DNA of 64,000 nt, taken from positions 2,418,001-2,482,000 of the forward strand of contig NC_013946.1 in NCBI RefSeq assembly GCF_000024425.1, given 5' to 3'. The position numbers and the translations under genes are program-made. Of this stretch, positions 12,440-28,473 are shown piece after piece. This DNA is from Meiothermus ruber DSM 1279 (GTDB taxonomy: Bacteria; Deinococcota; Deinococci; Deinococcales; Thermaceae). The notes beneath the pieces are model-generated. The model ran no database searches and was not told where the DNA came from. It saw only the letters and a list, made by a program, of their open reading frames with translations. Each line of letters starts with the position of its first letter. Within the stretch, counting starts at the first letter, position 1.

Positions 12440-12525
12440 GTTTTCCTTTAGGCGATTTTTGCGACAGGCCCGAGGGCCCGGGCCAACCAGCGGTCAGCTC
12501 CCGACCCTCGAGCCCCCAAGGCAGC

Positions 12526-13719
12526 TTAGAGTTTTGAACCGTCCACCCAGTCGGTGATGGCGTCGAAGCGGCCATCCCGCACGTTGGCCCGCCAGAGCTT
12601 GGTAAAGGGCAGTCGGTGGTTCACCCAGCGCATGTTGCGCACCTGGCCGCCAGCGTTGTAATCGCCCAGGCTCTCCAGGGCCTCGATCATGCCGGGGCGG
12701 GTCAGCTTGCCCGCCGCATGCGCCCGGCGCATGGCCTCGGCGATCACATCCACGGCCATCCAGGAACCCATGTAGTAGGTGGTGCGGTACGAGAGATCGC
12801 GGCCTTTAGAACGGCGCAAAGCCCGGATCTGCTCCACCGCCGGCACCGTGGTGTCGTAGTAGTAGGCGTTGTGGTAGGTCACGATGAAGCCATCGGCCGC
12901 CGCCCCGGCCCGCTGCATCAGGGCCAGCTCAGCCGAGTAGTAGGTGCCCATAAAGGTAGCCCGGACGCCCTGTTCGCGGGCCGCCCGCACCACCAGCGGT
13001 TCTACGGTGAGCACATAGCCCTGCATAATCACGAAGTCGGGCTGGGTCTGGCGCAGCTTGGTCACGATGGGGGTGGCATCGGCGATGGCCAGGGGGGTGA
13101 CTTCCTCACCCACAATCTGGAAGCCCAGTTTGGCCGCACGGTCTTTTATGAAGGGAATGGGGTCGCGGCCGAACTCGGAGTTGGAGTAGCAGAGGAAAAT
13201 TTTGGCCCCACGCCCCCTTTGCAAGCGAATCTGCTGCAGCAAAGCCCCGGCCATATCGTTGTAGGTGGGGCCAAAGACGAAAATGGTGGGGTAGGTGTTG
13301 GGATCGGCCAGCTCGTTGGAGAAAGAGGTGGCGGTGTAGGGCAGGCGCAGGCGGGTAATCTCGGGGGCCAGGGCTTTCGAAAGGCCGGTGGAGTCGCCGT
13401 AGACAAACACCAGCTCTTCCGGGCTTTCGCGCTGCACAATGCGATTGAAGGCAGCCGTTCCGCGGGCCACATCGTAGCCGTCGTCCTCGACCACCAACTC
13501 AAAGCGCCTTCCTCCGATACCACCGCTGTCGTTGATGCGATCGGCGGCATCGCGGAAAGCGTCCAGGGCCGCATTACCCGCAAAGGCAAAAGCACCCGTG
13601 AGGGGGAGAATGGCCGCGAGTTTGACCGGCCGGGCCTGGGCGCGGGCAATCATCCAGGGACTGTACACGGTAGAAGCAGCTAGACCAGCTTTAAGTACTT
13701 GCCGACGGTTCATCTTCAT
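12526..13719 (-). CDS. Branched-chain amino acid-type ABC transporter substrate-binding protein (Tat signal)
   Basis: A 397-residue type I periplasmic binding protein of the LivJ/LivK (Peripla_BP_6) family. It opens with MKMNRRQVLKAGLAAS, a twin-arginine motif close to S/T-R-R-x-F-L-K, so export is probably by Tat in folded form. The mature part has VKLAAILPLTGAFAFAGNAALDAFRDAADRIN, a typical ligand-pocket opening, and VYGDSTGLSKALAPEITR. The ATG at 13719 has GGAGGAAG upstream; the longer frame begins seven codons earlier. It leads the Liv operon. The ligand is not predictable from sequence. Confidence 0.92.
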   Translation of the reverse strand: MKMNRRQVLKAGLAASTVYSPWMIARAQARPVKLAAILPLTGAFAFAGNAALDAFRDAADRINDSGGIGGRRFELVVEDDGYDVARGTAAFNRIVQRESPEELVFVYGDSTGLSKALAPEITRLRLPYTATSFSNELADPNTYPTIFVFGPTYNDMAGALLQQIRLQRGRGAKIFLCYSNSEFGRDPIPFIKDRAAKLGFQIVGEEVTPLAIADATPIVTKLRQTQPDFVIMQGYVLTVEPLVVRAAREQGVRATFMGTYYSAELALMQRAGAAADGFIVTYHNAYYYDTTVPAVEQIRALRRSKGRDLSYRTTYYMGSWMAVDVIAEAMRRAHAAGKLTRPGMIEALESLGDYNAGGQVRNMRWVNHRLPFTKLWRANVRDGRFDAITDWVDGSKL

Positions 13720-13923
13720 GCACTTCCTCCTCGAGAGCAACTTCGGTTGTGTTGTGCACCTAGAATACTATGCCCCCTCGAGTTTTGTGTACCCGGTTCA
13801 AAACCATCTGGCTTATGGCGTCCACCGAACGGTCTAGCACGGCGGCGCATTGGAAAGCCCTTTTCTTCGGCGCGTGTTGTTGAAGGCTCGAGGCCGGATC
13901 CCCACGTTTTGTCAGGATGCCTA

Positions 13924-13953
13924 TTGGCAAGCCCTTTGCTGGAGGGTTAGGCT
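13924..13953 (+). promoter_or_regulatory. Probable leaderless promoter of the PaiB-like gene
   Basis: TTGGCA (13924-13929), an 18-base spacer and TAGGCT (13948-13953) end six bases before the ATG at 13960. This puts the transcription start at or next to the A of the start codon, as in leaderless mRNAs common in the Thermaceae. No ribosome binding site intervenes. Confidence 0.55.
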
Positions 13954-13959
13954 GGTCGA

Positions 13960-14568
13960 ATGTATCTACCCCAGCACTTTGCCGTGACCGACCCAGCGGT
14001 GCTGTTCGACCTGATGCAGCGGTTTAGCTTTGCCACCCTGGTCTCGGTGCACGAGGGCCGGCCTTTTGCCACCCAGATACCCTTTACGGTCTACCCCGAG
14101 CGCAACCTGCTGGCCAGCCACATGGCCCGCGCCAACCCCCAGTGGACCAGCTTCGACCAGAACCAGGAGGTGCTGGTGATCTTCCAGGGTGACCACAGCT
14201 ACATCTCCCCCACCTGGTACGCAAAGCACCCCAGCGTACCGACCTGGAACTACATGACCGTCCACGCCTACGGCAAGGTGCAAATAGTCGAAGAGCCCGA
14301 GGCGGTGAAAGCCCTGCTGCACGATCTGGTGGTGTCGTACGAGCAGCAGTGGAAGATGGAGGAGCTTCCCCAGGACTACCTGCACGGTATGATCAAAGGG
14401 ATTGTGGCCTTCCAGATCGAGATTACCCGGCTTTTTGGCAAGTTCAAGCTCTCGCAAAACCGCAGCCGGGCCGACCAGGAGCGGGTTATTGCCGCCCTGG
14501 AGCAAAGCCCCCATCCCGGCGATCGGGCCGTTGCCCGGCAGATGAAAAAGCGTTTGGAACAGGTATGA
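13960..14568 (+). CDS. FMN-binding negative transcriptional regulator-like protein (PaiB family)
   Basis: A 202-residue protein of the PaiB family with a split-barrel flavin-binding fold. Typical sequence runs include MYLPQHFAVTDPAVLFDLMQRFSFATLV, the HMARANPQW block, VIFQGDHSYISPTWYAKHPSVPTWNY and GIVAFQIEITRLFGKFKLSQNR. In Bacillus PaiB affects sporulation and protease genes, but most members are uncharacterised and may be flavin oxidoreductases. The stop codon overlaps the start of the following acetyltransferase gene (ATGA), and PaiA of Bacillus is also an acetyltransferase, so the pairing is suggestive. Confidence 0.9.
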   Translation: MYLPQHFAVTDPAVLFDLMQRFSFATLVSVHEGRPFATQIPFTVYPERNLLASHMARANPQWTSFDQNQEVLVIFQGDHSYISPTWYAKHPSVPTWNYMTVHAYGKVQIVEEPEAVKALLHDLVVSYEQQWKMEELPQDYLHGMIKGIVAFQIEITRLFGKFKLSQNRSRADQERVIAALEQSPHPGDRAVARQMKKRLEQV

Positions 14569-15203
14569 ACCCCCACCTCACCCAACCCATCACCCTCGAG
14601 GGCCGCCTTGTCCGGCTCGAGCCCCTCACCATGGCACACCTGCCCGCCCTGCTGGAGATCGCGCAGCTCGAGGAATACCCCTACACCGCCGTGCCCAAAC
14701 CGGAGGTGGGGATGCGGCGCTATATTCAAGCCGCCCTGAACGAGCAGGCCCAGGGGCAGGCCCTGCCCTTTGCAACGGTGGACAAGCAATCCCATCGCGT
14801 GGTGGGCAGCACCCGCTTTATGGCCTTCGAGTACTGGCCCTGGCCCGAAAACAGCCCCCACCACCGCCCCCAGCAACCCGATGCGGTGGAGATCGGCCAC
14901 ACCTGGCTGGCCCCACCGGCCCAGCGCACCGGCCTCAACACCGAGGCCAAGCTCTTGATGCTCACCCACGCCTTCGAGGGGCTGGGGGTGCGCCGGGTGA
15001 CGCTCAAGACCGACGCCCGCAACCTGCGCTCACGCCGGGCCATTGAGCGGCTGGGGGCGCACCTCGACGGGATTCTCCGCGCGCACCGCCCCGCGGCCGA
15101 CGGCGGCATCCGCGACAGTGCGATGTACAGCATTCTGGCCGAGGAGTGGCCGGCAGTTAAGACCCGGCTTTTGTACTTATTAGCCCAGAGAAACCCCGCT
15201 TGA
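14565..15203 (+). CDS. GNAT family N-acetyltransferase (RimJ/RimL type)
   Basis: A 212-residue acetyltransferase. It starts MNPHLTQPITLEGRLVRLEPL, typical of the RimJ/RimL subgroup, and has VGSTRFMAFEYW, EIGHTWLAPPAQRTGLNTEAKLLML (acetyl-CoA pyrophosphate-binding region) and RRVTLKTDARNLRSRRAIERLGA. The substrate could be a protein N-terminus, amino acid or antibiotic. The ATG at 14565 overlaps the stop of the PaiB-like gene, so the two are translated together. A longer in-frame reading from 14349 runs inside the upstream gene and is rejected. Confidence 0.9.
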   Translation: MNPHLTQPITLEGRLVRLEPLTMAHLPALLEIAQLEEYPYTAVPKPEVGMRRYIQAALNEQAQGQALPFATVDKQSHRVVGSTRFMAFEYWPWPENSPHHRPQQPDAVEIGHTWLAPPAQRTGLNTEAKLLMLTHAFEGLGVRRVTLKTDARNLRSRRAIERLGAHLDGILRAHRPAADGGIRDSAMYSILAEEWPAVKTRLLYLLAQRNPA

Positions 15204-15343
15204 AGGTTGTGATATCCGCTTTAGCCCGCCCCCGTGTGTGAGGCGGTGTACTCGAGCCCCTTCAGATTCAGATGCCGCCGGTCGTGGCCGGCCAGCATGG
15301 TTACAGAGAGGCTCGAGGCTGTCTTGGTGTAATCGCCCAGGGT

Positions 15344-16660
15344 TCAGGCCCCAGCAAAGGACAACTCGGCCACCTCGACCATGGGCGAGCCCACGATGCC
15401 CATCATGGGGTTCCACTCGAGCTCGCTACCCAGGGCGGTGATGCGGTTGAGCAGCTCCAGGAAGTTCCCCGCCACCGTGAAGTTCTCCACCGGGTGGGCC
15501 ACCTCGCCCCCCTCCACTTTGAGGCCCAGGGCCTGCAGGCTAAACTCCCCCGAGATGGGGTTGGCCCCGGCGTGCAGGCCCATCAGGTCGGTGACCACGA
15601 TGCCGCTGTCCATCTGCACGCCCGCGCCGGGCTCTACGAACAGGTTGCTGGGCGCAATGCCCAGCACCCCCTTGTAGTTGCGGGCGGCGTGGCCGGTGTT
15701 CTCCACCCCCATCTTGCGGGCGGTCTCGGAGTTATGGGCAAAGGTGCGCAGGATGCCCTTCTCGATGAAGACCGTGCGCCGGGCCGCGGTGCCTTCGGCG
15801 TCGAAGGGGCGCGAGGCCAGCCCGTCCGGTAGGGTGGGGTCGTCTACCAGGGTGAAAAGTTCCGAGGCGATTTTCTGCCCCACCCGGCCCGCCAGCAGGC
15901 TCTTGCCCTCGAGCACGTTCTTGGCCGAGAGCAAAAACCAGCCCATCATGCCCAGCAGTTGGGCAAAGGCCTTGGGCTCGAAGTAGGCTTTGTAACGCCC
16001 GGTTTTGAGGGGGCGGGCCCCCAGCAAGCGCCCGGTGCGGTGCAGGAACTGCTGGGCGGTGCGGCCGGGCTCGAGGGCGTGGAACTCCTTGGAAAGGTCG
16101 AACTCGTAGCCCTGCTTGAGGCTATGCCCCTCGCCCATCACGGCGCTGGTCAGAAGCAGGGCGTAGCCGTTGCGAAAGGCCCCCGAGACCCCCTGGGTGG
16201 AGCCCAGGGTGGCCTGGGTCTCGTTCTCGGAGTAGCGGGTCATCTGCACCTGCCGCACCCGGGGGTCGGCCCGCAAAGTAGCCTCGAGGTTCAGAGCCGC
16301 CTGGCGCTTTTGCTCCAGGGGGGCCGAAAGCCCCTCACCCAGCAGGTCGTGCTGGCCCAGGGCACCCCCCGCCGGCAGGAACCCCCCAGTCTCGGACTGC
16401 AATAGGGCATTCTCGTGGGCCTCCTGCAGCACCCAGTCGAGCGCTTCCGGGGTGCGCTCCTCGGTGTAGGCGTAGCCGGTTTTGCCCTCCACCACCACCC
16501 GCACCCCCACCCCGCCCTGGGTGGCCTGGGTGATCTCTTCCACCTTGCCGCCGTGGGCCTGGATGGTGAGTTCGCGGGTGTGGGTGGCCAGCACCTCGGC
16601 CTCGAGGCCCAAGGCGCGGGCTTTTTGTAGTAGATAATCCCTGGCTTCTTCAAAGGTCAT
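15344..16660 (-). CDS. pmbA: TldE/PmbA family metalloprotease subunit
   Basis: A 438-residue member of the TldD/PmbA (U62) family. It has family blocks GVGVRVVVEGKTGYAYTEE, ARNYKGVLGIAPSNLFVEPG and MGLHAGANPISGEFSLQALG, but no HExxxH motif, which marks it as the TldE/PmbA partner. In E. coli TldD and TldE form a heterodimer that degrades unfolded peptides and matures microcin B17. The start at 16660 (MTFEEARDYLL) follows AAGGGGG. The gene begins 25 bases after tldD and is surely co-transcribed. Confidence 0.93.
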   Translation of the reverse strand: MTFEEARDYLLQKARALGLEAEVLATHTRELTIQAHGGKVEEITQATQGGVGVRVVVEGKTGYAYTEERTPEALDWVLQEAHENALLQSETGGFLPAGGALGQHDLLGEGLSAPLEQKRQAALNLEATLRADPRVRQVQMTRYSENETQATLGSTQGVSGAFRNGYALLLTSAVMGEGHSLKQGYEFDLSKEFHALEPGRTAQQFLHRTGRLLGARPLKTGRYKAYFEPKAFAQLLGMMGWFLLSAKNVLEGKSLLAGRVGQKIASELFTLVDDPTLPDGLASRPFDAEGTAARRTVFIEKGILRTFAHNSETARKMGVENTGHAARNYKGVLGIAPSNLFVEPGAGVQMDSGIVVTDLMGLHAGANPISGEFSLQALGLKVEGGEVAHPVENFTVAGNFLELLNRITALGSELEWNPMMGIVGSPMVEVAELSFAGA

Positions 16661-16685
16661 GGTTCTTCCCCCTTGGTAGAGCGGC

Positions 16686-18080
16686 TCAGGCCTGGCCCCC
16701 CACCACAATCTCGGAGATCAAAAGGTGCGGCTGGCCCACCTCCACCGGCAGGCTGCCCGAGAGTGAGCCGCACATGCCGGGGCCCATCTCGAGGTCGTCC
16801 GAGACCGCCACAATTTTCTGGATGCTCTCGGGGCCCTTGCCCACCAGCATGGCCCCCCGCACCGGCTCCTCGATGCGCCCGTGGCGGATGATGTAGCCCT
16901 CCTTGACCGCAAAGTTGTACTCACCGGAGCCGGGCCGCACCTGCCCCCCGCCCATATCGGCGGCGTAGAGGCCGTACTCGATGCCCTCGAAGAGTTTTTC
17001 CTTAGGGGTGGTGCCGGGGGCGATAAAGGTATTGCGCATCCGGCTGGTGGGGGCAAAGGTGTAGTCCTGGCGCCGCCCCGAGCCGGTGGGCCGGTAGCCG
17101 GTGAGCAGGCTGCCCAGCCGATCCACCATGTAGCTTTTGAGCACCCCGTTCTCGATCAGCACGGTGCGCTCGGTGGGCCTTCCCTCGTCGTCGAACTCCT
17201 GCGAGCCCCAGCCGTGGGGGGTGGTGCCGTCGTCGATGTAGGTCACGCAGTCCGAGGCCACTTTTTCGCCCAGCTTGTCGGAGAGCACACTGGCTTTTTT
17301 CGCGACGGAAGTGGTTTCCAGGAGGTGCCCCAGGGCCTCGTGGAAGATCACCCCGCCAAAGCCGTTGCCAATTACCACGGGCATGGTGCCGGCGGGGGCC
17401 GGTTTGGCCCGCAGGTTGGTGAGGGCCTGCAGGCCGGCCCTGCGCCCGACCTCGGCGGGGGGGTAGCGGTCGAAGAGCTCGAGGCCCACACTGAGCCCCG
17501 GCCCCATCACCCCGGTCTGCATCCCGCTCTCGTCCTGGGCGATGGCGGTCACGTAGAGACGGGTGCGCACCCGGCGATCCTCGGCCCAGGTGCCCTCGCT
17601 GGTGGCCACGAGCACCTCCTGCTCCCACTCCATCAGGTTGGTCTGCACCTGCTTGATCTGGGGGCCGACCTGGGCCCCGGCCTCGGCCTCGCGGAGGCGC
17701 TCGAGGCGGTAGCGCTTGTCTTTGGTGCTAAAGGGAACCTGGGGGGCGTGCAGCCCCTGGGCCACCACCTTGCGAAAATCGAGGCCGCCCCGGCCCAGCG
17801 CGTCCACCTGGCCCGCCTGGCCCTTGAGCTGAACCAGGGTCTCGGTGACCTCGAGCAGGCCCTGGGGGCTCAGGTCGTTGGTGTAGGCATACACCACCTC
17901 GGTGCCGTAAAAAAGCCGCAGCCCGGCCCCGTACTCGAGGCCGCTGGTGGCCTCCTTCACCTCGCCCGAAAGCACCCGCAAGGCCCGCCGCCGCCAGCGC
18001 TCCACATACAGCTCTGCGAAATCGGCCCCACCCTGCCGGGCACGGCGGAGCACATCTCCCACCAATGCTTCGTCTAACAC
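16686..18080 (-). CDS. tldD: Metalloprotease TldD
   Basis: A 464-residue catalytic subunit of the TldD/TldE protease. The zinc motif HEALGH is near residue 249, followed by LLETTSVAKKASVLSDKLGEKVAS, the conserved DDGTTPHGWGSQEFDDEG and GLYAADMGGGQVRPGSGEYNF. The start codon is GTG at 18080, supported by AAGGAGG just upstream. It is the first gene of a two-gene unit with pmbA. No peptide-antibiotic genes are close, so a general role in peptide turnover is likely. Confidence 0.94.
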   Translation of the reverse strand: MLDEALVGDVLRRARQGGADFAELYVERWRRRALRVLSGEVKEATSGLEYGAGLRLFYGTEVVYAYTNDLSPQGLLEVTETLVQLKGQAGQVDALGRGGLDFRKVVAQGLHAPQVPFSTKDKRYRLERLREAEAGAQVGPQIKQVQTNLMEWEQEVLVATSEGTWAEDRRVRTRLYVTAIAQDESGMQTGVMGPGLSVGLELFDRYPPAEVGRRAGLQALTNLRAKPAPAGTMPVVIGNGFGGVIFHEALGHLLETTSVAKKASVLSDKLGEKVASDCVTYIDDGTTPHGWGSQEFDDEGRPTERTVLIENGVLKSYMVDRLGSLLTGYRPTGSGRRQDYTFAPTSRMRNTFIAPGTTPKEKLFEGIEYGLYAADMGGGQVRPGSGEYNFAVKEGYIIRHGRIEEPVRGAMLVGKGPESIQKIVAVSDDLEMGPGMCGSLSGSLPVEVGQPHLLISEIVVGGQA

Positions 18081-18129
18081 ACAACCTCCTTGTAGCTAAC
18101 CCAGCCTAACAGACTAAAGGCCCAAGCAA

Positions 18130-18170
18130 AACCCATATGGGTTGCATTTTGTGCGGTCGTCTGACCGCAC
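18130..18170. promoter_or_regulatory. Two adjacent palindromes upstream of the amidase gene
   Basis: AACCCATATGGGTT at 18130-18143 is a perfect 14-bp palindrome. Eight bases later GTGCGGTC-GTCT-GACCGCAC (18151-18170) is a perfect 8-bp stem with a four-base loop. They lie between the divergent tldD and amidase genes. There is no T-run, so a terminator is unlikely; operator sites or a folded leader are possible. Confidence 0.4.
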
Positions 18171-18246
18171 CGTGCTTCTGCTCATAAAGCTCGCTGCGCA
18201 AAGTCCTCATCCCAAACTTTGGGGCCTCTATAAACTAAAAACTGTT

Positions 18247-19464
18247 TTGAAGGCGAACCGTTTCCCACTGAGTTTACTGATGGCCGCCCTCCTGAGCACC
18301 GGCGCGCTGGCCCAGAGCCTGCCGCCCATTCGCATTGGCGACCAGCCGGGGTTTACGCGGGTGGTGCTGGACTTACCCAAAGAGGCGACCCACCAGATTG
18401 AGCCGCTGGGCGCTGCGCTGCGGGTGACCCTGCCGGGTCAGACCGTCACACCCGGCCTGCACTTTGTGAGCCTGCCGGAGCTGGCCGGGTATGTGCTCGA
18501 GCAGCACGAGAACCAGGCGGTGCTGATCCTGCTGACCCCCCAGGGGGTCACGCCCCGCTCCGGCTACAAGACCATGACCCTGGCCGCCCTGCAGGGCGAC
18601 GGGCAGCGGCTGGTGATTGATCTATCCGGGGCCTTTGTGGATACCAGCCCGCTACCGGCCTTCCCGGAGTTTCGCTTTGTAAAGGCCAGCGGGCGGCGCT
18701 TTTCGGTGGTGGTGGACGCCGGGCACGGCGGCCCCGACCCCGGCGCCTTGGGCCCGGTGGTGGAAAAAGCGGTGAACCTCGAGGTGGCCCTGCGGGTGCG
18801 CCGCTTTTTGCAAAACGCGGGGGTGGAGGTCACCCTGACCCGCGAAAGCGATACGGCCTTTTCACCCGACAAGCGCACCGACCTGGCCCAGCGCGTGGCC
18901 CTGGCCGAGGGCAAAGATCTATTTGTCTCTATCCACGCCAACGCCGCCGCACCGACCCGCGCCGACGCCTGGTGCGGCCTCGAGGTCTACTACTACAGCC
19001 CCACCACCACCCGCCCCTTTTTCCCCTCCCCGGCGCCGCTCCTGCCCGCCCCTCCCCCCCTTGCGCTCAACCCGCTGGATGCGCTCGAGGCCGCCCAGTC
19101 CACCCCGCTCGACCCCGGCGCCCAGCCCAGCCCCGAGGATGTCAACCCCATCCCACCGCAGAGCCTGCCCACCCCCACCCCGCAGATGGACTCGCTGCGC
19201 CGCATGGAGCTCTCCCGCACCCTGGCCACCCGGGTGCTCTCGTACACGCTGGGGGCCACCGCTGCCGTCAACCGTGGGGTGCGCAGCGCCGACTTCTTCG
19301 TGATCCGCTACACCGGCGTTCCGGCCATCCTGGTGGAGATGGGCTACCTGAGCCACCCCATCGAGGGCCAGAACCTGCGCGATACCAACTACCTCGAGCG
19401 CATCAGCTACGGCATCGCCCGGGGGATCCTGGAGTATCTGGAAAACGACCACCCGTTCAAATAG
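18247..19464 (+). CDS. N-acetylmuramoyl-L-alanine amidase with AMIN domain and proline-rich insert
   Basis: A periplasmic or exported peptidoglycan hydrolase (Amidase_3). From the TTG at 18247 the product has about 405 residues: a signal peptide ending ALAQS, an AMIN-like domain ([17 protein letters not shown]), and the catalytic domain with zinc ligands in [17 protein letters not shown] in [10 protein letters not shown], and SIHANAA, plus the catalytic Glu in [11 protein letters not shown] proline-rich insert of about 60 residues interrupts the catalytic domain after GLEVYYYSP. The start is uncertain: TTG at 18142 and GTG at 18151 are also in frame, but these would put a long polar tail before the signal peptide. 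Confidence 0.88.
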
Positions 19465-19483
19465 GCTTTCTCGGCGGAGGGAT

Positions 19484-21145
19484 ATGCCCAGTTGCCTTGA
19501 CCAGACCCAGGCCACGCCCGTCGTCCAGCATCCAGCCGCTCCTTCGGCTCGAGGGGCCGTCTTCACCCGCCCTGAGGTGGCGGAGTTCATGCTGGATCTG
19601 GTGGGCTACACCCCCGACCAACCCCTGTATCAGCAGCGCATTCTGGAGCCGTCGTTTGGGGATGGTGTGTTCCTGCTAGCCATCCTGCGCCGGCTGCTGG
19701 CGGCGGCCAGGCGGGCCGGGGTTTCGGAGCTGGCCGGGGCCATCCGGGCAGTGGAGCTGCACTCTGAAACCTTCGAGGCCACCCACCGCGCGGTGGTTGC
19801 GCTGTTGCAGCAGGAAGGCTTCAGCAGGCACCTGGCCGACCAATGGCTGATTCAGGGGGATTACCTGCTGTGTTCACTCGAGGGACCTTTCCACTACGTG
19901 GTCGGCAACCCGCCCTACGTGCGCATGGAGACCGTCCCCCCTACCCTGCTGGCCGAGTACAGAAAACGCTACGCCACCATGTACGACCGCGCCGACCTGT
20001 ACATCCCTTTCATTGAGCGTTCGCTATCGCTGCTGGCGGAGGGGGGTGCGCTGGGATTCATCTGCGCCGACCGCTGGGTCAAAAACCGCTACGGCGCCCC
20101 GTTGCGCCAGTATGTGGCCGACAACTTTCATCTCAAAATTTTCCTTGACATGGCCCATATGCCGGCCTTCCGCTCTAAAGTAGCAGCTTACCCGGCCATC
20201 GTGGTGATCAGCCGGGAAGCGCCGGGGCCCACCCGCGTTGTTCGCCCGGCGAGCCTCGAGCCAGGCCAGCTCACCCGGCTTGCGGAGGTGCTGCGGGCCA
20301 GCACCCTGCCAGAAGGCAGCGGGGTGCGGGTGGCCCAGGTCACCCGCGGCGCAGCGCCCTGGCTGTTCCTTGCACCCGAGCAAAGGGCTTTGCTGGAGCG
20401 GCTCGAGCGCAGCTTTCCCAGCCTCGAGGAGGCGGGCTGCCGGGTTGGGATTGGGGTGGCGACCGGGGCCGACCAGGCCTTTATCGGCGACTTCGAGGCC
20501 CTCGAGGTAGAACCGGATCGCAAGCTGCCCCTGGTCACCACCCAGGACATCGGCTCAGGCGAGGTGCGGTGGGGCGGCAAGGGTCTTATCAACCCCTTTA
20601 GCGAGACGGGTGATCTGGTCGATCTTCGCTGCTACCCCCGGCTGCGCGCTTATCTAGAAGCGCGCCGGGAGGTGATAGCCAGTCGACACTACGCCCAGCG
20701 GTTTCCGGCGCAATGGTACCGCACCATCGACCGGATCGTACCCTCGCTGGCCAGAACGCCCAAGCTCCTCATCCCCGATATCAAAGGCCGGCCCCATGTG
20801 GTGTTTGAGCCGGGGCGGCTGTACCCTCATCACAACCTCTACCACATCACCTCCGAATCGTGGGATCTGCGCGCACTCCAGGCGGTGCTGTTGTCGGCGG
20901 TGGCCCACCTGTTTGTCGCGGCCTATTCAACCCAGATGCGCGGGGGCTATCTGCGCTTTCAGGCCCAGTATTTGCGGCGCATCCGCATCCCACCCTGGGC
21001 CAGCGTACCCCAGAATATCCGGCAAGCCCTCCTCGAGGCCGCCCAGAAGCGCGATGTGTCAGCCTGCAACCAGGCCGCCTTTCGGTTGTACGGCCTTAGC
21101 GAGGAAGAAAGCGCTGTTCTCGAAAGGTTATACGCAAGCACGTGA
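19484..21145 (+). CDS. Solitary N6-adenine DNA methyltransferase (gamma class, Eco57I/PaeR7I-like)
   Basis: A 553-residue type II DNA methylase. It has the X-I region [14 protein letters not shown] followed by [16 protein letters not shown], and the catalytic motif IV GNPPYV near residue 145, in gamma-class order. The rest ([58 protein letters not shown]) is the target-recognition part. From memory these blocks resemble methylases of the XhoI/PaeR7I type (CTCGAG), but I cannot verify the specificity. GGAGGG precedes the ATG. No endonuclease gene is adjacent: upstream is the amidase, downstream a non-coding repeat beginning at the stop codon. Confidence 0.88.
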
Positions 21146-21484
21146 TGACTCCTCGGACTGGAAGTCCAAGGCTTCTCGGGAACCACAGATACACCGCACC
21201 CGAGGGCTCCGTCCGAGCCCATAGAAAACCTTGACTCCGTATCGGCAGGCGAGCGGTATGCTTCCCGCCCCGCCTTGGCGGGGCGGATGCCACGGGTGTT
21301 CGTTTGGAGTTTTACCCATCGGACTACCCGATGGAACCCCCTACTCCAGGTTTCAAGGGGCACGGGAAGCGATGTTCCCAAGGAGATCACACCGCCCATT
21401 TGCCGCCCACTATGCTATGTGCTCCTCCGGAGCACGTGGGGAGTCCATGTGAAAACCGGGGGATTATAGCCCCCACACCCCCTC
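21143..21484 (+). ncRNA. Structured repeat copy 1 (omega-RNA-like candidate)
   Basis: First of two related non-coding elements. The main block (21143-21358) can fold into several hairpins: GGACT/AGTCC, CTCGGG (21175) / CCCGAG (21199), GGGCTC/GAGCCC, a perfect 10-bp GC stem near 21264-21285, and CCATCGG (21316) / CCGATGG (21328) nested within TTGGAG/CTCCAG. The block ends in TTTCAA(GG), after which the two copies diverge for 95 bases here. A second shared block (21449-21484) holds GGGGG-attatag-CCCCC. Ending in TCAA followed by unrelated sequence is like an IS200/IS605 right end with its TnpB guide RNA, but no tnpB is present. The class assignment is inference. Confidence 0.6.
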
Positions 21485-21507
21485 CAATTTTTGCTACCCT
21501 ACTCGGC

Positions 21508-22485
21508 ATGGAGTTCGCATCGAATTTGTTGCTTATAGCCAGCGGCGTGGTGCTGCTGTACTTTGGGGGCGAGTCGCTGGTCAAAAACGCGGTGATACTG
21601 GCCCGCAGTTGGGGCATCAGCACCATGGTGGTGGGCCTGACGGTGGTGGCTTTTGGCACCAGCAGCCCCGAGCTGGCCGCCAGCCTGGCCGCGGCCCTCT
21701 CGGGCAGCCCCTCCATCGCCATTGGTAACGTGGTGGGCTCGAACATTCTCAATATCCTCTTCATCCTGGGCCTCACCGCCCTGATCGTGCCCATCCGCGC
21801 CCAGGCCCAGTTCATCAAGCGCGAGGTGCCCATCATGCTGGGCGCAACCTTGCTGCTGTTTGTGTTCCTGTACTTCGACCAGCAGATCACCCGCTGGGAG
21901 GCGCTCTTTTCGGTGGGATTACTGGGTCTGTACATCTGGTTTCTGTACCGCAGCGGTGCAACCGAGGTAGCCGAGGTGCAGCAAGAGTACGAGCAGGAAT
22001 ACAGCCAGACCACCAAAGCCGGCTGGCAGGCCTACGCGGGGGTGGTGCTGGGGCTGGTGCTCCTGGGGGTGGGGGCCCGCCTGCTGACCCTGGGGGCGGT
22101 GGAGCTGGCCCGGGCCTTTGGGGTGCCTGAGCTCATTATTGGCCTGACCGTGGTGGCCCTGGGCACCAGCCTGCCGGAGGTGGCTGCCTCCATTGCGGCC
22201 GCCCTGCGCCGCGAGCCCGACATCGCGCTGGGCAACATCGTGGGCTCCAACATCTTCAACATCCTGGGCATCCTGGGCCTCACCGCCCTGGTGCAGCCAG
22301 TGGGCCTGCCCTGGGAGGGCATCCAGCGCGATATGTGGGTGATGCTGCTGGCCAGCCTGCTGCTATGGCCGTTTCTGGCGACCGGGTTCCGCCTGGGGCG
22401 GCGCGAGGGGGGCGTTTTCCTGGGGCTGTACGGGGCTTATGTGGCCCTGCTGATCTACAGCGCTGCTCAGCGCGGCATGGGTTGA
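21508..22485 (+). CDS. Calcium/sodium antiporter (CaCA family, YrbG-like)
   Basis: A 325-residue inner-membrane cation/Ca2+ exchanger with about ten helices in two inverted halves. The two alpha-repeats are clear: VAFGTSSPELAASLAAAL with GNVVGSNILNI, and VALGTSLPEVAASIAAAL with GNIVGSNIFNI. The hydrophilic loop between halves (YEQEYSQTTKAGW) is short, as in bacterial YrbG. The ATG at 21508 (MEFASNLL) is chosen because the reading frame upstream runs through the structured repeat. The 3' end overlaps the convergent holA gene by 19 bases. Confidence 0.93.
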   Translation: MEFASNLLLIASGVVLLYFGGESLVKNAVILARSWGISTMVVGLTVVAFGTSSPELAASLAAALSGSPSIAIGNVVGSNILNILFILGLTALIVPIRAQAQFIKREVPIMLGATLLLFVFLYFDQQITRWEALFSVGLLGLYIWFLYRSGATEVAEVQQEYEQEYSQTTKAGWQAYAGVVLGLVLLGVGARLLTLGAVELARAFGVPELIIGLTVVALGTSLPEVAASIAAALRREPDIALGNIVGSNIFNILGILGLTALVQPVGLPWEGIQRDMWVMLLASLLLWPFLATGFRLGRREGGVFLGLYGAYVALLIYSAAQRGMG

Positions 22486-23405
22486 TGCACCCGCGCCAGC
22501 GTGGCCAGGGCCCGCTCCAAGGCCAGCCGCATATCCCGGCCTGTTTTGGCCGCCTCCTCAGCCTCCAGCAGGGCCTCGAGGGCCTGGGTGATGGCCTCTC
22601 CAGACATCTTTTTAGCCAGTAACAGGGTTTGCTTGGCAGCGTAGGGGTGCATGCCCAGGGCGCTGGCGGCCACCCCCTCCCCCATCAGGGGGTCATCCTG
22701 CAGCAGGGCCCAGGCCCTAGCCACCCGCACGTACTGCCAGGAGAGCGCACCCAGAATGCGCAAGGGGTCTTCCCCCCGCTCCAGTAGCTCACGGGCCACC
22801 TTGAAGGCCTGGGTGGCTTTACCTTCGGTGATGGAACGCACCAGATCAAAGCCGGAGATGGGGGTGTCCAAAGCGACCAGGGCCTGTACTTTCTCCAGGG
22901 TGATGGGGGGCGAGGCCAGGCAGAGTTTGCGCAGTTCCTGGTCGAGGGCCTCGAGGCCCATGGCCGGGTTCTCGGCGCTGCCCTTACCCCCCACCAGGCC
23001 CGCCAGGTACGAGGCGATGGCCCCCGGTAACTTCAGGTCGTAGTGGCGGGCGCGGTTCACCACCCAGTTGGTCATCTCCTTGGGGCCAGGGGTGGGGTGA
23101 TCGCGCTTCTGGGCTTTTTCGGCGTACCACTTGCTGCGGGCCGCGGTGGGCCGGGGATCGAGCAGCAGCACCACCGCCTCGGGCGGCAGGCCTTCCAGCA
23201 CCTCCTTAAGGGGCTTCCACTCGGCCTCGGCAAGGTCGCGCAGATCCACCAGGGCTCCGCTGGGGCCAAACAGCCCACCGCTGGCCTCCTGGGCCACCAG
23301 GGCCGGCTCCGGGGGCATCAGGCGGGGGGGTAGGCCCTGCAGGCTGGCCTCCTGGAGCAGGGCCTCTCGGGCCAGAAAGCTGTCGCCGGTGAACACCTGA
23401 ATCAT
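22467..23405 (-). CDS. holA: DNA polymerase III subunit delta
   Basis: A 312-residue clamp-loader subunit that opens the sliding clamp. It begins MIQVFTGDSFLAREALLQEA, has the RDLAEAEWKPLKEVLEGLPPEAVVLLLD region, the GLEALDQELRKLCLA segment typical of HolA domain II and the C-terminal PYAAKQTLLLAKKMSGEAITQALEALLEAE. The start at 23405 is set because the frame upstream lies antisense to the second structured repeat. It overlaps the antiporter gene tail to tail. Confidence 0.88.
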   Translation of the reverse strand: MIQVFTGDSFLAREALLQEASLQGLPPRLMPPEPALVAQEASGGLFGPSGALVDLRDLAEAEWKPLKEVLEGLPPEAVVLLLDPRPTAARSKWYAEKAQKRDHPTPGPKEMTNWVVNRARHYDLKLPGAIASYLAGLVGGKGSAENPAMGLEALDQELRKLCLASPPITLEKVQALVALDTPISGFDLVRSITEGKATQAFKVARELLERGEDPLRILGALSWQYVRVARAWALLQDDPLMGEGVAASALGMHPYAAKQTLLLAKKMSGEAITQALEALLEAEEAAKTGRDMRLALERALATLARVHQPMPR

Positions 23406-23457
23406 GCGCAGTGGCAGGATACCAGATGACAGGCACTTACAGCTTAGAGTGGCAGCA

Positions 23458-23714
23458 TGACGACGCCTCGGACTGAAAGTCCAAGGCTTCCCGGGTACTA
23501 CAGCGTAGAAGCCGTATCCGAAGGCTCCGTCCGAGCCCAGAAAACCTTGACTCCGTATCGGCAGGCGTCCAGCTCTGCCACGGGTGCTCGTTTGGAGTTT
23601 TACCCACCGAACTGCCCGGTGGAACCCCCTACTCCAAGTTTCAAGGTGCATTGGGGGCGTTCATGTATCCCCGGTTTGAAAACCGGGGGATTATAGCTCC
23701 CCCACACCCCCTCT
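23458..23714 (+). ncRNA. Structured repeat copy 2 (omega-RNA-like candidate)
   Basis: Second copy, same strand as the first, lying between the holA start and the end of the DUF4160 gene, so it is not the leader of any gene here. The main block runs 23458-23646 and again ends TTTCAAGG. Compared with copy 1 the paired stem CCACCG (23604) / CGGTGG (23617) keeps pairing while one pair changes from T-A to C-G, and the CTCGGG/CCCGAG stem is replaced by GGCTTC (23485) / GAAGCC (23508). The GC-rich 10-bp hairpin of copy 1 is absent. Only about 22 bases separate TTTCAAGG from the terminal hairpins CCCCGGTTT/AAACCGGGG and GGGGGA/TCCCCC, followed by six Ts (23714-23719), a plausible terminator. Confidence 0.6.
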
Positions 23715-23735
23715 TTTTTCTAAGACCACAGGGCT

Positions 23736-24095
23736 TTACGCCGGCTCGAGCGCCGCCGGTTCGGAGCTGGGCTCGAGCGCCGCTGCAGGCGCTTCGTGTG
23801 TAGGGCCCGATTTGTGGCCCGGCTTGTCTTCTTTCTCGGCCTCGGGCCTGACCCCCTGGGTAATGGCATACTCCCACCAGAGCTGCAAAAGCTGGGGCTC
23901 GAGGTCGGCCACCATCCCCTGCAACCGGGTAAGCTCGTTGCGGGCCAGGCCGTTGTTGATCACCACACTCACCGGCTTCAAGGTGAACTTGGCCCAGGCA
24001 TCCCCGTCGCGGGTTACAAAGATGTGCGGCTTTTCCTGGGCGCTGCCCGACTTAACGTAAAAGCGAAAACCACCCCGGCGCATGAGCGTCAACAT
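23736..24095 (-). CDS. DUF4160 domain protein
   Basis: A 119-residue small protein. The DUF4160 pattern is visible: GFRFYVKSGSAQEKPHIFVTRDGDAWAKFTL, then a helix NELTRLQGMVADLEPQLLQLWWEYA. The last 35 residues are a Pro/Ala/Glu-rich tail. DUF4160 genes often pair with a DUF2442 gene in toxin-antitoxin-like loci, but no such partner is seen here. The function is unknown. The start at 24095 has AGGTT close upstream; ATG four codons later is the alternative. Confidence 0.7.
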   Translation of the reverse strand: MLTLMRRGGFRFYVKSGSAQEKPHIFVTRDGDAWAKFTLKPVSVVINNGLARNELTRLQGMVADLEPQLLQLWWEYAITQGVRPEAEKEDKPGHKSGPTHEAPAAALEPSSEPAALEPA

Positions 24096-24215
24096 AACCT
24101 GAGTTTATCCATTCGGGGGCCCTCCCGCGGTGCTTCTGACCATCTGGGTAGCACGGCATCCATCCCTTCACCATCCCACCTTCGGCCCTTCGGTTTTCGG
24201 ATAGATTGGATACCG

Positions 24216-24893
24216 GTGGACAACCGTCTGCGGCTCCTGTTGGTGCTCTTCCTGCTGGGCAGCTTTGCGCTTTTTAGCTGGCGCGGGCTGGGCGAGGTCT
24301 TTCGCGAGCGCGGGCGCTACACCGACGCCCTGGGGCTGATCCCCGCGGCCACACCGCCGCTTCGCTTTGGGGTTCCCTCGCTGCAGGAGCTTGCGGTGCG
24401 CTACCACCTCGAGCCCACCCGGGCTACCTGCTCGATCTGCCACCTCGGCTCCCTGGGCAGCAAGCAGTTCAACCCCTTCGGCCAGGACTACCAGGCCATC
24501 GTCCATCGGCTCCTGGACGAAACCGTGGGGCCCGACAGCCCCGAGTCGCGCAGCATCTTTCAGCTAAGCGCAGTGCAGATCCGCCAGGCCCTGCAGCAGG
24601 TGACCCAGGACGGGCTGGACTCCGACCGGGATGGCTTCGACAACGACCTCGAGCTCCTTTTTGGCTTTCTGCCGGGTGATGCAGCTTCCAGGCCCCGCCT
24701 GCGCGTGGAGACCCTGCAAAACTACCGCACCCGATTGCGCCAGGCCGCCCAGGAGGGCCGGCTGGAGGCCTTGCTACGCCAGGGCGCGCGACCCAGCGAG
24801 GCCCAGCCCGCCTTTTGGGGGTTTGCGGCCAACCAAACCCCCCTGGTGCGCCCAGAACGCCTGGCCCTCTATCAAGCCGCCCTCAGCCCGTGA
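24216..24893 (+). CDS. Exported mono-haem c-type protein with Asp-rich loop
   Basis: A 225-residue protein with an N-terminal hydrophobic segment (LRLLLVLFLLGSFALFSW) acting as signal or anchor. A single CSICH motif (CxxCH, near residue 70) would bind haem c covalently outside the membrane. Further on DSDRDGFDNDLELLFGFLPGD resembles a Ca2+-binding thrombospondin-3/dockerin-type loop. The start is taken as GTG at 24216; no ATG is in frame before the hydrophobic stretch. I do not recognise a named family. It could carry electrons or bind a ligand at the cell surface. It is convergent with the TRAP permease gene. Confidence 0.65.
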   Translation: MDNRLRLLLVLFLLGSFALFSWRGLGEVFRERGRYTDALGLIPAATPPLRFGVPSLQELAVRYHLEPTRATCSICHLGSLGSKQFNPFGQDYQAIVHRLLDETVGPDSPESRSIFQLSAVQIRQALQQVTQDGLDSDRDGFDNDLELLFGFLPGDAASRPRLRVETLQNYRTRLRQAAQEGRLEALLRQGARPSEAQPAFWGFAANQTPLVRPERLALYQAALSP

Positions 24894-24899
24894 ATGGTG

Positions 24900-27263
24900 T
24901 CAGTCGGCGGCCTGGGGCGAGGCGGTGCTTTTGCCCTCACCGCGCAAGAAGAAGAGCAGCCCCAACACAAAAGGAATAAAGGCCATCCAGAGGTTGGGAT
25001 AGGGGTAGAACAACGCCAGGGCCAGGAGCCCCATCACCCAGCTTTCCCAGCGCCGCAAGGGGCGGCGGGTGTAGCCAACCGTGGCCGCAGCCAGGAAGAC
25101 AATGGCCGTGGCGGTGAAGAAGAAGCGCTCGAGGATGATCAACCACCCCTCGAGGCCCGGCAGGTTCTGCAAAATCGGCAAAATCAGCAGCCCGGTGCCG
25201 GTGAAGGAGAGCAGGAAGAAGAAGCCGATGATGTACTTGGCCAGCGCCACCCGCGCCGCGTACACCCCGGTCAGGATGGGGTTGGTTTTGAAGACCGAGG
25301 CCGCCGCATAGCCCGAGAGCGCCACCGGCGGGGTCACGTCGGCCAGCACCGCGTAGTAGAAGAGGAACATGTGGGTGGCCAGGGTGGCCGCCAGCACCGC
25401 CTGCTGGGGCTCGAGGCCAAAGCCCTGGAAGTTGGCCGCGGCAATTTTGATGATGGCCGGCGCAGTGAGCGAGGCGGTGAGCACGTAGGTGGCCGTCGGG
25501 GGCACGCCCATCCCCAGAATCAGGCTGAAGATGGCCGTGACCAGGGTAGCCAGCAACAGGCTCTCCCCCGAGACCTGCCCCAAGAAGATCGAGAACTTGG
25601 AGGGCAGGCCGGTGATCACCATCATCCCGAAAATCAGGTTGGCCGCCACGATGGCCGAGCCGATGGGGATAAGCTGGCGGAAACCCTCCACCAAACCCTG
25701 GGCGATGGGCAGGAGGGCCCCCCGCAGCTTACCGGCGGCAGCCGCTGGATACACAAACGTGCCCAATAGCAGGCCCAGCGCCGCCAGCGTCACAGGCAGA
25801 ATAGGGATGTTGCCGAGATCCCACCCAGCCAGCACAGGGAGCAAAGCGCCGCCGATGGCCAGCCCAATGCCCAGGGGCAGGCCCACCTTGTAGGCGGGGC
25901 TTTGCATGGCCTCGGCCAGCGGGGCCGGCCGCAGGGTGGGGTCGAGGTAGCAGATGAGCACAAAGGCCAGCGAGGCCAGGTACACCGCGGTGGCCACCTC
26001 GGTGCCCAGAAAGAGCAGCACCACAATCAGCACAATCGGGATGAAGATGGTGCTGTAGCGCAGGGCATAGCGTTTTCCTAGCGGAATGTCTGCGCCCACC
26101 GGGGGCAGCTTGGCCTTGCGGGTATAAAACTCGTTGAAGGTGAGAATCCCCAGCAGGTACAGAAGCATGGGCCCCAGGGCCATGATCACCACCCACAGAT
26201 AGCTGATCTGCAGGATCTCGACCATCACAAAAGCGATGGAACCCAGCACCGGCGGCGTAATCAGGGCAATGGTGCCTGCGGTGGCCACCAGGCCGGCGGC
26301 GATCATTTTGTCGTAGTTGGCTTTTTCGTAGAGGGGCTTGGTCAGGGTGGCCACGAACTGGGTATCGGCCGCCCCGGAGCCGCTGAACATTCCCATAAAC
26401 ACCGAGGCGATGCCGGTCACCCGGCCCGGGGTCTGGGGGGTGCGGCCCACCATGGCCAGGGCGATGTTCGCCACCACCTTGCCCAGCCCCAACGCCCCAA
26501 TCAGGCCCGAGAGGATGGTGAAGTAGACCAGGTACTTGGCCGAAACCCCGGTAATCAGGCCGTAGATGCCGGCCTCGGTTTCGTTGTAGGTTTTACCCAG
26601 GATCAGGTCGATGCCGTTTTTGGCTCCACGGAAGGTGCCGGGCACGTACTGGCCGTACATGTTGTAGGTCAGGAAAAGCAGCACCAGCGAGGGCATGATG
26701 GGGCCCAGCAGCCGGCTGACCAACCCCAGCACCAGAATGATGACCGTAAAGGACATGGCCATATCCCAGCCCGCGGGAATTACCGCCCGGTTGACCAGCT
26801 CCTCGTAGTAGCGCACCTGGTAGGCCCAGGGCGCGATGGCCAGCAAGGCCGCGGCGATGTCGGCATAGCGCCGCAACCGGGGTAGCAGGTTGGGCCCCAC
26901 CGCCAGGGCCCAGGCCAGGCTGCCCATCAGTTTGCCCGCGAGCGGAATATCCACACCCGGTACGTTGGGCACCCAGAAGGTGTACAGAAAGGGCAGCGAC
27001 AAAAGCGCAAACACCCAGGCCCCTATAGTGGGACGGGCGGCCTGGAGCTGAGAGGTAATCAGGTAACCCGCCACCAACAGCAGCAGGACGTGGGTAGCCC
27101 GCCGTAGCTGCACCTGATCCAGGATGCTGATGTCCAGCCGGCTCAAGGGCGTAAAGGGGTGAAGCACCAGGTACAAGCTGAACAATGCCGCTGCTAGGAG
27201 GATAAACCAGATAAGGCGTCCCAGCGGGGTGGTTCTACCCGCACTGTCTCGAGGTATCTCCAT
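24900..27263 (-). CDS. TRAP transporter fused permease, TAXI type (4TM/12TM)
   Basis: A 787-residue inner-membrane protein joining the small (DctQ-like) and large (DctM-like) TRAP permeases, as is usual for TAXI-TRAP systems. About 18-20 hydrophobic helices are visible. DctM-type signatures include FMGMFSGSGAADTQFVATLTKPLYEKANYDKM and GMGVPPTATYVLTASLTAPAI. It uses an ion gradient to import organic acids or amino acids. The ATG at 27263 follows GGAGG by 7 bases. The gene lies downstream of its binding-protein gene with an intrinsic terminator between them. Confidence 0.93.
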   Translation of the reverse strand: MEIPRDSAGRTTPLGRLIWFILLAAALFSLYLVLHPFTPLSRLDISILDQVQLRRATHVLLLLVAGYLITSQLQAARPTIGAWVFALLSLPFLYTFWVPNVPGVDIPLAGKLMGSLAWALAVGPNLLPRLRRYADIAAALLAIAPWAYQVRYYEELVNRAVIPAGWDMAMSFTVIILVLGLVSRLLGPIMPSLVLLFLTYNMYGQYVPGTFRGAKNGIDLILGKTYNETEAGIYGLITGVSAKYLVYFTILSGLIGALGLGKVVANIALAMVGRTPQTPGRVTGIASVFMGMFSGSGAADTQFVATLTKPLYEKANYDKMIAAGLVATAGTIALITPPVLGSIAFVMVEILQISYLWVVIMALGPMLLYLLGILTFNEFYTRKAKLPPVGADIPLGKRYALRYSTIFIPIVLIVVLLFLGTEVATAVYLASLAFVLICYLDPTLRPAPLAEAMQSPAYKVGLPLGIGLAIGGALLPVLAGWDLGNIPILPVTLAALGLLLGTFVYPAAAAGKLRGALLPIAQGLVEGFRQLIPIGSAIVAANLIFGMMVITGLPSKFSIFLGQVSGESLLLATLVTAIFSLILGMGVPPTATYVLTASLTAPAIIKIAAANFQGFGLEPQQAVLAATLATHMFLFYYAVLADVTPPVALSGYAAASVFKTNPILTGVYAARVALAKYIIGFFFLLSFTGTGLLILPILQNLPGLEGWLIILERFFFTATAIVFLAAATVGYTRRPLRRWESWVMGLLALALFYPYPNLWMAFIPFVLGLLFFLRGEGKSTASPQAAD

Positions 27264-27329
27264 ACGCAAACCTCCAAAAACTCGTTGAGCGATTATACCG
27301 AGTTCATAAGAGGCTGTAGCACCTATGAA

Positions 27330-27357
27330 AAAGCTCCCCCGGGCTCGAGGGAGCTTT
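27330..27357 (-). terminator. Intrinsic terminator between TAXI binding-protein and permease genes
   Basis: On the minus strand AAAGCTCCC, a ten-base loop and GGGAGCTTT run into TTTTTC. This is a good rho-independent terminator placed between the binding-protein stop (27374) and the permease start (27263). It would let more binding protein than permease be made, a common arrangement for binding-protein transporters. Confidence 0.75.
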
Positions 27358-27373
27358 CAGGGCTAGGCCGGGT

Positions 27374-28375
27374 TTAGCGGATGGCTCCGACCTCGCGCAG
27401 GTACTTTATGGCCCCTGGGTGGAAGGGGATCACGGTTTTCTGGTTGTACAGATCTACGGTGTTCTTGAGGGTGGTGTCGCGCGCGGCGGCAGTGGCCGTC
27501 ACCAGGGTCTGCAGGTTGCCGAACACCGCTTTCATGATGGCAGCGGCCAGGTCGTCGGGCATGGAGGCCGGGCAGAGGAAGACGTTGCCGGTGAAGAGGG
27601 CGAAGACGTCGTCTTTGGTGCCATAGGCGCTCTTGGGCAGCCTGCCGGTGGTGATGATGCCGGGGAACTCCTTGAGCAGCAGTTGGGCAGTGGGGCCGGT
27701 GCGGGGCGAGTCCACCAGCTTGATCTGGTCACCTTTGCGGGCCAGGCTCTGGGCCAACTCGACCACGCTCGAGGTCGGCACACCCCCTACCCAGAAGTAG
27801 GCGTCAATGGTGCCCTCGGAAAGGGCCTTGGCCGACTCGGCAGCAGGCAGGCGCTCGCGCTTGGCAAACTCACGCGGATCCACCCCCGCCCCCTTGAGCA
27901 CCAAGAGGGCCAGGTTCTCGGTGGAGGAGCCGGGCTGGCCGGTCGAGACCCGCTTGCCCCGCAGGTCGCCCACAAACCTGATGCCCGACTTTTCGGTGGT
28001 CACAATGTGAATAAGGCTCGGATACATGTAAAACATGATCCGCTGCATATCGGCCTTGCGCTGGGCAAAGCGGGGCTCCTCACCAGTGTAGGTGACCAGG
28101 GCCGAGTCGGTGGTGGCCAGGGCACAGTAGTAGGTGCGGGAGGCAGGATCGGTGCGGTCGCGCAGCAGCAACAGGTTGTCGTAAGAACCCCCGGTCTGCT
28201 GGGCGGTGGCGTCGGCCACCCCAGCCTCGCTCAGGATTTTGGCAACAGCCTGCCCGTAAAAAAAGAACACCCCACCGGTGCTACCCGTAGGGATGACCAC
28301 CCTGGGGCGCTGCTGGGCTACGGCCCAGCCCGCCAGCAACGCCAAGGCGACGATGGTTAGTTTCCAAAACTTCAT
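27374..28375 (-). CDS. TAXI family TRAP transporter solute-binding protein
   Basis: A 333-residue periplasmic binding protein with a Sec signal peptide (MKFWKLTIVALALLAGWAVAQQ). TAXI-family features are VVIPTGSTGGVFFFYGQAVAKILSEAG at the mature N-terminus and RGKRVSTGQPGSSTENLALLVLKGAGVDP in the middle, then AYFWVGGVPTSSVVELA. Some TAXI proteins bind glutamate or other dicarboxylates; the ligand here is unknown. Transcription probably starts at the TTGACT/TAAACT promoter about 100 bp upstream. Confidence 0.94.
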   Translation of the reverse strand: MKFWKLTIVALALLAGWAVAQQRPRVVIPTGSTGGVFFFYGQAVAKILSEAGVADATAQQTGGSYDNLLLLRDRTDPASRTYYCALATTDSALVTYTGEEPRFAQRKADMQRIMFYMYPSLIHIVTTEKSGIRFVGDLRGKRVSTGQPGSSTENLALLVLKGAGVDPREFAKRERLPAAESAKALSEGTIDAYFWVGGVPTSSVVELAQSLARKGDQIKLVDSPRTGPTAQLLLKEFPGIITTGRLPKSAYGTKDDVFALFTGNVFLCPASMPDDLAAAIMKAVFGNLQTLVTATAAARDTTLKNTVDLYNQKTVIPFHPGAIKYLREVGAIR

Positions 28376-28473
28376 TCAAGAACCTCCTGAAACCGGCTCG
28401 GGAGCAAGCGCTGGGTCGCACCCAAACCCAGTACAGGCCGATGCGACCACGGGTTTTGCTTCCGGCTGTGGAC

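Follow-up and report, generated by a model that had tools for sequence, protein, structure and literature searches.

A solitary PaeR7I-type adenine methylase in a Meiothermus genome crowded with its predicted target, CTCGAG

The solitary adenine methylase encoded in the 64,000-nucleotide stretch of the Meiothermus ruber DSM 1279 genome analysed here (the window) is probably an orphaned member of the PaeR7I family, kept by a host that was already full of CTCGAG sites. On this reading the gene would derive from a PaeR7I/XhoI-type restriction-modification system that has lost its endonuclease and kept the modification half. It occupies a single locus in a Meiothermus subclade (M. ruber, G017, M. 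taiwanensis (G021) and G005) and is retained by purifying selection within a CTCGAG-dense lineage, where a standing methylase may serve to make the genome immune to PaeR7I/XhoI-type systems carried on mobile DNA. The iteration of CTCGAG would be a distinct phenomenon at the level of the DNA, found widely in the order. The methylase is of a known kind in an unusual setting, and the iteration of the word, which does not need the methylase, is the more interesting of the two.

The methylase, its predicted target and its missing partner

The open reading frame is intact, starts at an ATG and encodes 553 residues. Its Pfam matches are to Eco57I (E 2e-22) and N6_Mtase (21.0 bits, cut-off 20.4), with TaqI_C scoring 23.8 over residues 397-500, under the cut-off of 26.5. 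Among solved structures the best match is M.BseCI (E 5e-25), and further matches are to two adenine methyltransferases (E 5e-9) and to M.TaqI (E 4e-7). Alignment places the NPPY motif and the order of the motifs in the gamma class, the roles of the motifs, including GAVFT, being those usual for such motifs, and shows an in-frame insertion in the copy from G021. The amidase, trp, hydrolase, dnaA and dnaN genes mentioned here and below were named by eye. The features of the locus are collected in Table 1.

Table 1. Features of the methylase gene and its surroundings, in window coordinates
Feature	Position	Strand	Basis or remark
PaeR7I/XhoI-type gamma-class N6-adenine DNA methyltransferase, solitary; predicted product CTCG(m6A)G	19484..21145	+	homology, Pfam, alignment
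GAVFT N-terminal motif, residues 24-28	19553..19567	+	G24, A25, F27 and T28 invariant in alignment
Catalytic NPPY, residues 142-145	19907..19918	+	invariant in 8 aligned proteins
C-terminal region, residues ~377-505; target recognition likely here	20612..20998	+	strongly conserved with PaeR7I-type enzymes
GGAGGG, possible ribosome-binding site	19476..19481	+	unusually near the ATG (2 nt)
Upstream neighbour, amidase-like	18142..19464	+	ends 19 bp before the methylase
Stretch of ~344 bp directly 3' of the methylase	21143..21486		absent here in G017 and G021
Imperfect copy of the 21143-21486 repeat	23458-23650 and 23677-23713		the other copy directly follows the methylase
145 CTCGAG sites, predicted targets, spread over the window	1..64000		count

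At this locus G017, G021 and G005 are collinear with the window. In G016 (L171, L172, L193), a close relative without the gene, the sequence homologous to the window ends precisely at the stop codon of the amidase-like gene, at 19464, and resumes elsewhere in the opposite orientation, a rearrangement at the methylase locus. A complete-looking restriction pair lies elsewhere in the window, at 34908-36394, where a PF01555 methylase of 313 aa precedes an endonuclease of the BglII family (182 aa, E 3e-20).

Similarity to PaeR7I-type enzymes extends over the full length of the protein at 53-65% identity. A collection of plasmids yielded 76 matching records, with identities from 64% to 53% among the 25 listed; the annotated plasmid gene paeR7IM encodes a protein 64% identical over 97% of the methylase and is directly followed by paeR7IR, and the same layout of methylase and then endonuclease occurs on plasmids of Paracoccus, Nitratidesulfovibrio, Phaeobacter and Aeromonas. 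Genome contigs yielded at least 557 relatives, and in 78 of the 80 best of these a PaeR7I/XhoI-family endonuclease match lies downstream of the methylase. The endonuclease match begins no more than 46 bp past the end of the methylase match in 76 of the 78, and 97 and 505 bp past it in the other two; nine of the 78 are shorter than 200 aa, full length being about 246 aa. The two relatives without such a match are that of M. taiwanensis, where 4 kb were searched, and that of an Acidobacteria MAG, where just 1.2 kb of contig lies beyond the gene. The share of paired genes among the more distant relatives may be lower than among these best 80 of at least 557.

PaeR7I is described as recognizing CTCGAG, with the fifth base methylated to m6A (PMC3031569), and in Photorhabdus luminescens TT01 CTCGm6AG was reported at 28 of 28 sites and assigned to plu2709/plu2710 (PMC6092372). 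Two other Photorhabdus species in our scan carry the methylase gene with an endonuclease match, one full length and one partial. Judged by its sequence, the M. ruber protein is a PaeR7I/XhoI-type N6-adenine methyltransferase, and because CTCGm6AG is the proven product in this family, the target is very probably CTCGAG, with the adenine N6-methylated on both strands. The original prediction, of a 553-residue gamma-class methylase resembling the XhoI/PaeR7I enzymes, agrees with the intact frame, the NPPY motif, the gamma motif order and the full-length likeness to paeR7IM; homology likewise supports CTCGAG as the most likely of the two targets then proposed, the other being bare TCGA, and the check named at the time, whether the closest homologues have another proven target, came out in favour of CTCGAG.

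The endonuclease that accompanies nearly all of the best relatives was sought in several ways. A profile search for PF04555, the XhoI family, found no match in any of 28 genomes (M. ruber and 27 relatives); control genomes also gave no match, and the model was then checked on two PaeR7I-family endonucleases, which scored 355 and 301 bits. With four PaeR7I-family endonucleases as tblastn queries, the window gave nothing credible, the best match having an E of 0.88; the short flanks of the Meiothermus homologues and the 4 kb that follow the M. taiwanensis gene were likewise negative. These searches uphold the earlier view that the enzyme has no endonuclease partner: the adjacent endonuclease of a complete PaeR7I-type system is lacking, and the gene is an orphan methylase in the usual sense, one maintained while its cognate endonuclease is absent. 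Maintenance is evident from the frame, which is open in M. ruber (G000), G017, G021 and G005, with no stops, and from dN/dS values of 0.16-0.24 in six pairs. The methylase is under purifying selection. In a quick tree of 92 rows the four Meiothermus copies form one solitary clade (SH-aLRT 94), and two copies from a neighbouring genus, g3, join G108 on long branches, a join that the program flags as possibly false. G108 itself, another member of the order (L187:8950-11281), has a PaeR7I-type methylase (51%) whose endonuclease match is divided between two frames; the gene seems to be on its way to becoming an orphan, sequencing error being the alternative.

CTCGAG iteration in the genome and its relatives

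It is clear that CTCGAG is extremely abundant in M. ruber, as the original prediction had stated. The 145 copies in the window compare with 13.4 +/- 3.9 (maximum 24) in 100 dinucleotide-preserving shuffles, and CTCGAG is by far the strongest 6-base palindrome there; the genome, a single contig of 3,097,457 bp, contains 7,570 copies, against 1,239 of the reversed word GAGCTC, and a 400-kb sample of it (L151-L170) contains 928, against 91 expected. In ORF-based gene models from this sample, 582 of 1,090 Leu-Glu pairs are written CTC-GAG, where codon usage predicts 177, CGA makes up 72% of the 87 Arg codons at positions where it completes CTCGAG and 7% overall, and TCG makes up 50% of the 167 Ser codons in CTCGAG context and 22% overall; outside ORFs of at least 200 aa the sample has 1.96 sites per kb. 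Codon usage can be rejected as the cause, since the word is enriched in every codon frame and outside genes, and the iteration acts at the DNA level. Spacing is near random (dispersion 1.18 in 230 bins), and in M. ruber 89% of the bases that flank the word are G or C, against 63% by composition, a figure uncorrected for codon position; in family f3 the values are 57% and 52%. Far above expectation genome-wide and in relatives, with codon usage offering no explanation, CTCGAG here resembles in these respects a highly iterated palindrome (HIP). The PvuII word CAGCTG is strongly depleted, with 2 copies in the window where 32 are expected and 27 in the 400-kb sample where 204 are expected; a Meiothermus PvuII-like C-REase fusion has been described (PMC3850674).

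The distribution of the gene was followed through 50 genomes of the family of M. ruber (f1), with per-kb densities based on rounded genome sizes; they include 18 of its own genus, two each of genera g2 and g3 (together 22) and 27 of g4, probably Thermus. Homologues of full or nearly full length, 47-89% identical, are present in G017, G005 and G021, which with M. ruber makes 4 of the 18 in the genus, and in both g3 genomes (G003, G004); neither g2 genome has one. Five further matches in the family, at 28-34% identity, lie inside open frames of 1,334-1,489 aa, four of them in genomes that have no full or near-full homologue. In every one of the 22 genomes from the genus of M. ruber and its two neighbours, CTCGAG occurs 1.4-3.4 times per kb, no less than twice as often as the control word, and the gene is present in six of these rich genomes and missing from 16. 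Density in the 27 g4 genomes is lower, 0.6-1.1 per kb, and amounts to 0.7-1.8 times that of the control word, though two 20-kb samples stand at 2.4 and 2.8 times expectation.

G016, which may have lost the gene recently, has 7,762 CTCGAG in about 3.2 Mb, a density like that of M. ruber, and keeps 97 of 111 window sites, while G021, which has the gene and equal overall identity to the window, keeps 80 of 98 (p 0.26). In every relative compared, CTCGAG is retained better than the average word of the same letters: 87% against 62% in G016 (97/111 and 1458/2367), 91% against 66% in G017 (110/121 and 1680/2557), 82% against 58% in G021 and 60% against 43% in G005. Its retention ranks 5th of 69 frequent words in G016, 2nd of 71 in G017, 5th of 49 in G021 and 7th of 12 in G005, so that single words, some of them overlapping CTCGAG, are kept equally well or better. 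Gains and losses of the word inferred from three-way alignments are similar (14 and 10, and 13 and 12 when other species are used). Within the genus the four carriers, a single clade, have 2.19-2.44 sites per kb and the 14 non-carriers 1.39-3.07 (p 0.08). The gene is not needed to reach or to keep this density; as a requirement for abundance it is rejected by the 16 rich genomes that lack it and by G016, where density and retention are no lower. We infer that the methylase arrived after the density had arisen.

Beyond the family the pattern in the order is patchy. Of 111 genomes sampled across the phylum, 54 have CTCGAG at no less than twice the control word and 16 have less of it than of the control word; G053, from the family of the rich G050-G052, has 683 copies in 2.3 Mb. 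In the richest genomes, G054-G057 of family f3 and G051-G052 of f2, density reaches about 6-8 per kb, and samples of 5-40 kb contain the word at about 16 to 63 times the expected number; G057 alone among the six has a homologue, and it is 28% identical. The same six genomes (L177-L185) contain GAGCTC only 2-25 times each, and several other palindromic hexamers, among the lowest five listed per genome, are near absent from the samples. A match to the methylase family profile was found in nine of the 111 genomes and in eight of the 28 with at least 2 CTCGAG per kb. That density is reached by 8 of 9 carriers and 20 of 102 other genomes (p 5e-5, or p 0.009 with the five carrier lineages counted once each). 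Carriers are thus concentrated in CTCGAG-rich genomes, and there is therefore some tie between the word and the enzyme, which we read as rich hosts keeping the methylase; the reverse, an enzyme that helps to enrich the word, is also possible.

Weighing the explanations

One plausible explanation for the retention of the gene is protection, because the 7,570 XhoI sites leave the genome unusually exposed to incoming PaeR7I/XhoI-type systems. We regard this, tentatively, as the likeliest reason for keeping the methylase, and an epigenetic use of the CTCGAG sites as a lesser possibility. As to the word itself, it is conceivable, with somewhat less assurance than for protection, that CTCGAG is a HIP in many members of one Deinococcota order, produced by a sequence-directed process independent of any one methylase (repair, conversion or selection on chromosome structure), and that Meiothermus, already full of the sites, only later took up a mobile PaeR7I methylase and domesticated it.

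Four kinds of methylase were surveyed across the relatives (PF01555, PF00145, PF02086 and PaeR7I-type), and the survey brought up a competitor to the PaeR7I-type gene as the family's CTCGAG marker. A solitary-looking beta-class PF01555 methylase of 287-298 aa lies near trp genes in M. ruber (G000 1,545,099-1,545,959; L022:7100-7963), and if this vertically inherited enzyme were the real marker, the PaeR7I-type gene would be redundant. Its distribution within the family is in its favour: 21 of the 22 CTCGAG-rich genomes have it, all but G017, which is 84% complete, as does one of the 27 g4 genomes (G024). In M. ruber, G005 and G001 it lies downstream of a trpB-like gene, and one and the same hydrolase-like ORF follows it in these three genomes and also in G004; its copies are 64-98% identical to that of M. 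ruber across the carriers outside g4, and its dN/dS, for comparison with the PaeR7I-type gene, is 0.09-0.18 in three pairs. Outside the family, however, it has no match at E 1e-40, and the CTCGAG-rich genomes G050, G096 and G097 lack any PF01555 match. Within g4, G024 has the gene (61%), yet a 20-kb sample of it gives 19 sites against 6.7 expected, much like the 18 against 7.3 of G029, which lacks the gene. We consider this explanation unlikely.

The m5C methylases (PF00145) are rejected as a common factor, occurring in 11 of the 22 genomes. Every one of the 22 has at least one D12 methylase (PF02086), with an open frame of 358-503 aa in 18, and this family too is rejected, with a match in 9 of 22 genomes of a second set, eight over the cut-off, and none in the CTCGAG-rich G050, G051 (58% complete), G096 and G097. 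Among the PF01555 methylases of f2 and f3, the 8 of 14 matches compared include no family common to all, and one pair reached 66% identity. Each rich lineage may have an unseen CTCGAG methylase of its own.

A further possibility, and the one suggested in the original prediction, is that the methylase and the abundant CTCGAG form a single regulatory or genome-organizing system, in which the sites are selected because they are methylated. The most over-represented palindrome is the predicted target, the word is kept better than the average word of the same composition (as in G016 and G017), the methylase is under purifying selection, carriers are concentrated in rich genomes, and within the genus density tends to be higher with the gene, at the p of 0.08 given above; an orphan CTCGAG methylase with origin-proximal site clusters has been described in Nocardia (PMC4752239). 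Against this stand the 16 of 22 rich genomes of the family that lack the gene and the six densest genomes (about 6-8 sites per kb), with their single distant homologue. M. ruber, moreover, has no CTCGAG cluster at dnaA-dnaN: the stretch from 1 to 3 kb, which covers the end of dnaA to dnaN, has no site in either of its 1-kb bins, and the first kb has 5. The proposed link, by which the methylase would account for the abundance, is not supported, on these counts and on G016, which has no fewer sites without the gene, and we regard such a system as improbable.

That the methylase is an inactive, functionless relic is very unlikely: its endonuclease is lost, 14 of 18 members of the genus lack the gene and the G021 copy has its insertion, but the frame open in four genomes, the dN/dS of 0.16-0.24 and the intact catalytic motif all argue for function. 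The idea of a TaqI-like enzyme acting on bare TCGA can be set aside with near confidence, for although the protein matches M.TaqI and, weakly, TaqI_C, and TCGA too is enriched in the window (302 against 126 expected), the TaqI likeness is local (96 residues) where the PaeR7I likeness is full length, and 145 of the 302 TCGA sit inside CTCGAG, leaving 157.

Comparison with known systems

In its full-length similarity, Pfam make-up, invariant catalytic motif and predicted CTCGm6AG product, the M. ruber methylase resembles the PaeR7I/XhoI-type restriction-modification systems (paeR7IM; plu2709/plu2710), and it differs from them in having no endonuclease partner. The hosts differ as well. Those that restrict have few CTCGAG sites, 28 in P. 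luminescens, whereas the Meiothermus host has thousands; near the 78 paired relatives the word is at 0.33 of expectation (66 against 201) and is missing from 41 of the 78 loci. One methylase family is thus found in opposite settings, with few sites beside its nuclease and in a site-crowded genome after the nuclease has been lost.

The orphan CTCGAG methylase of Nocardia (Blow 2016; PMC4752239) is comparable in two features, its solitary state and its word. Its sites are reported to cluster near dnaA, unlike those of M. ruber at dnaA-dnaN. The main text of that paper does not name Meiothermus; a later passage, citing it, gives AAGm6AYC and GGCm6AGC as the REBASE motifs of M. silvanus DSM 9946, and that passage is silent on CTCGAG (PMC7037351).

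Parallels with the HIPs of cyanobacteria, HIP1 and the alternate HIPs, are closer as regards the word. In both cases a GC-rich palindrome occurs far above expectation, at one or more per kb across related genomes, and in some genomes a methylase able to mark the word is present (Elhai 2015; PMC4390886). The main text of that paper, in which neither Meiothermus nor CTCGAG is mentioned, describes most cyanobacterial HIPs as occurring roughly once per kb, and states that every cyanobacterial genome with highly over-represented words has a putative methylase capable of acting on them; it also points to genomes that are rich in HIP1 yet lack a CGATCG methylase, and suggests that methyl-directed repair drives the iteration (PMC4390886). 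In the literature searched, consisting mostly of papers available without subscription, we found no report of CTCGAG iteration in this phylum. Here the word and the phylum are different, densities reach about 6-8 per kb, and CTCGAG abundance does not follow any of the methylase families tested. How highly iterated palindromes are created and kept up is a question known from cyanobacteria, in which the word usually occurs together with a methylase that matches it. In Meiothermus and its relatives the two are partly apart: density is similar within the genus with or without a CTCGAG-type methylase, and the denser related families mostly lack one, so that these genomes offer a natural experiment separating methylation from iteration.
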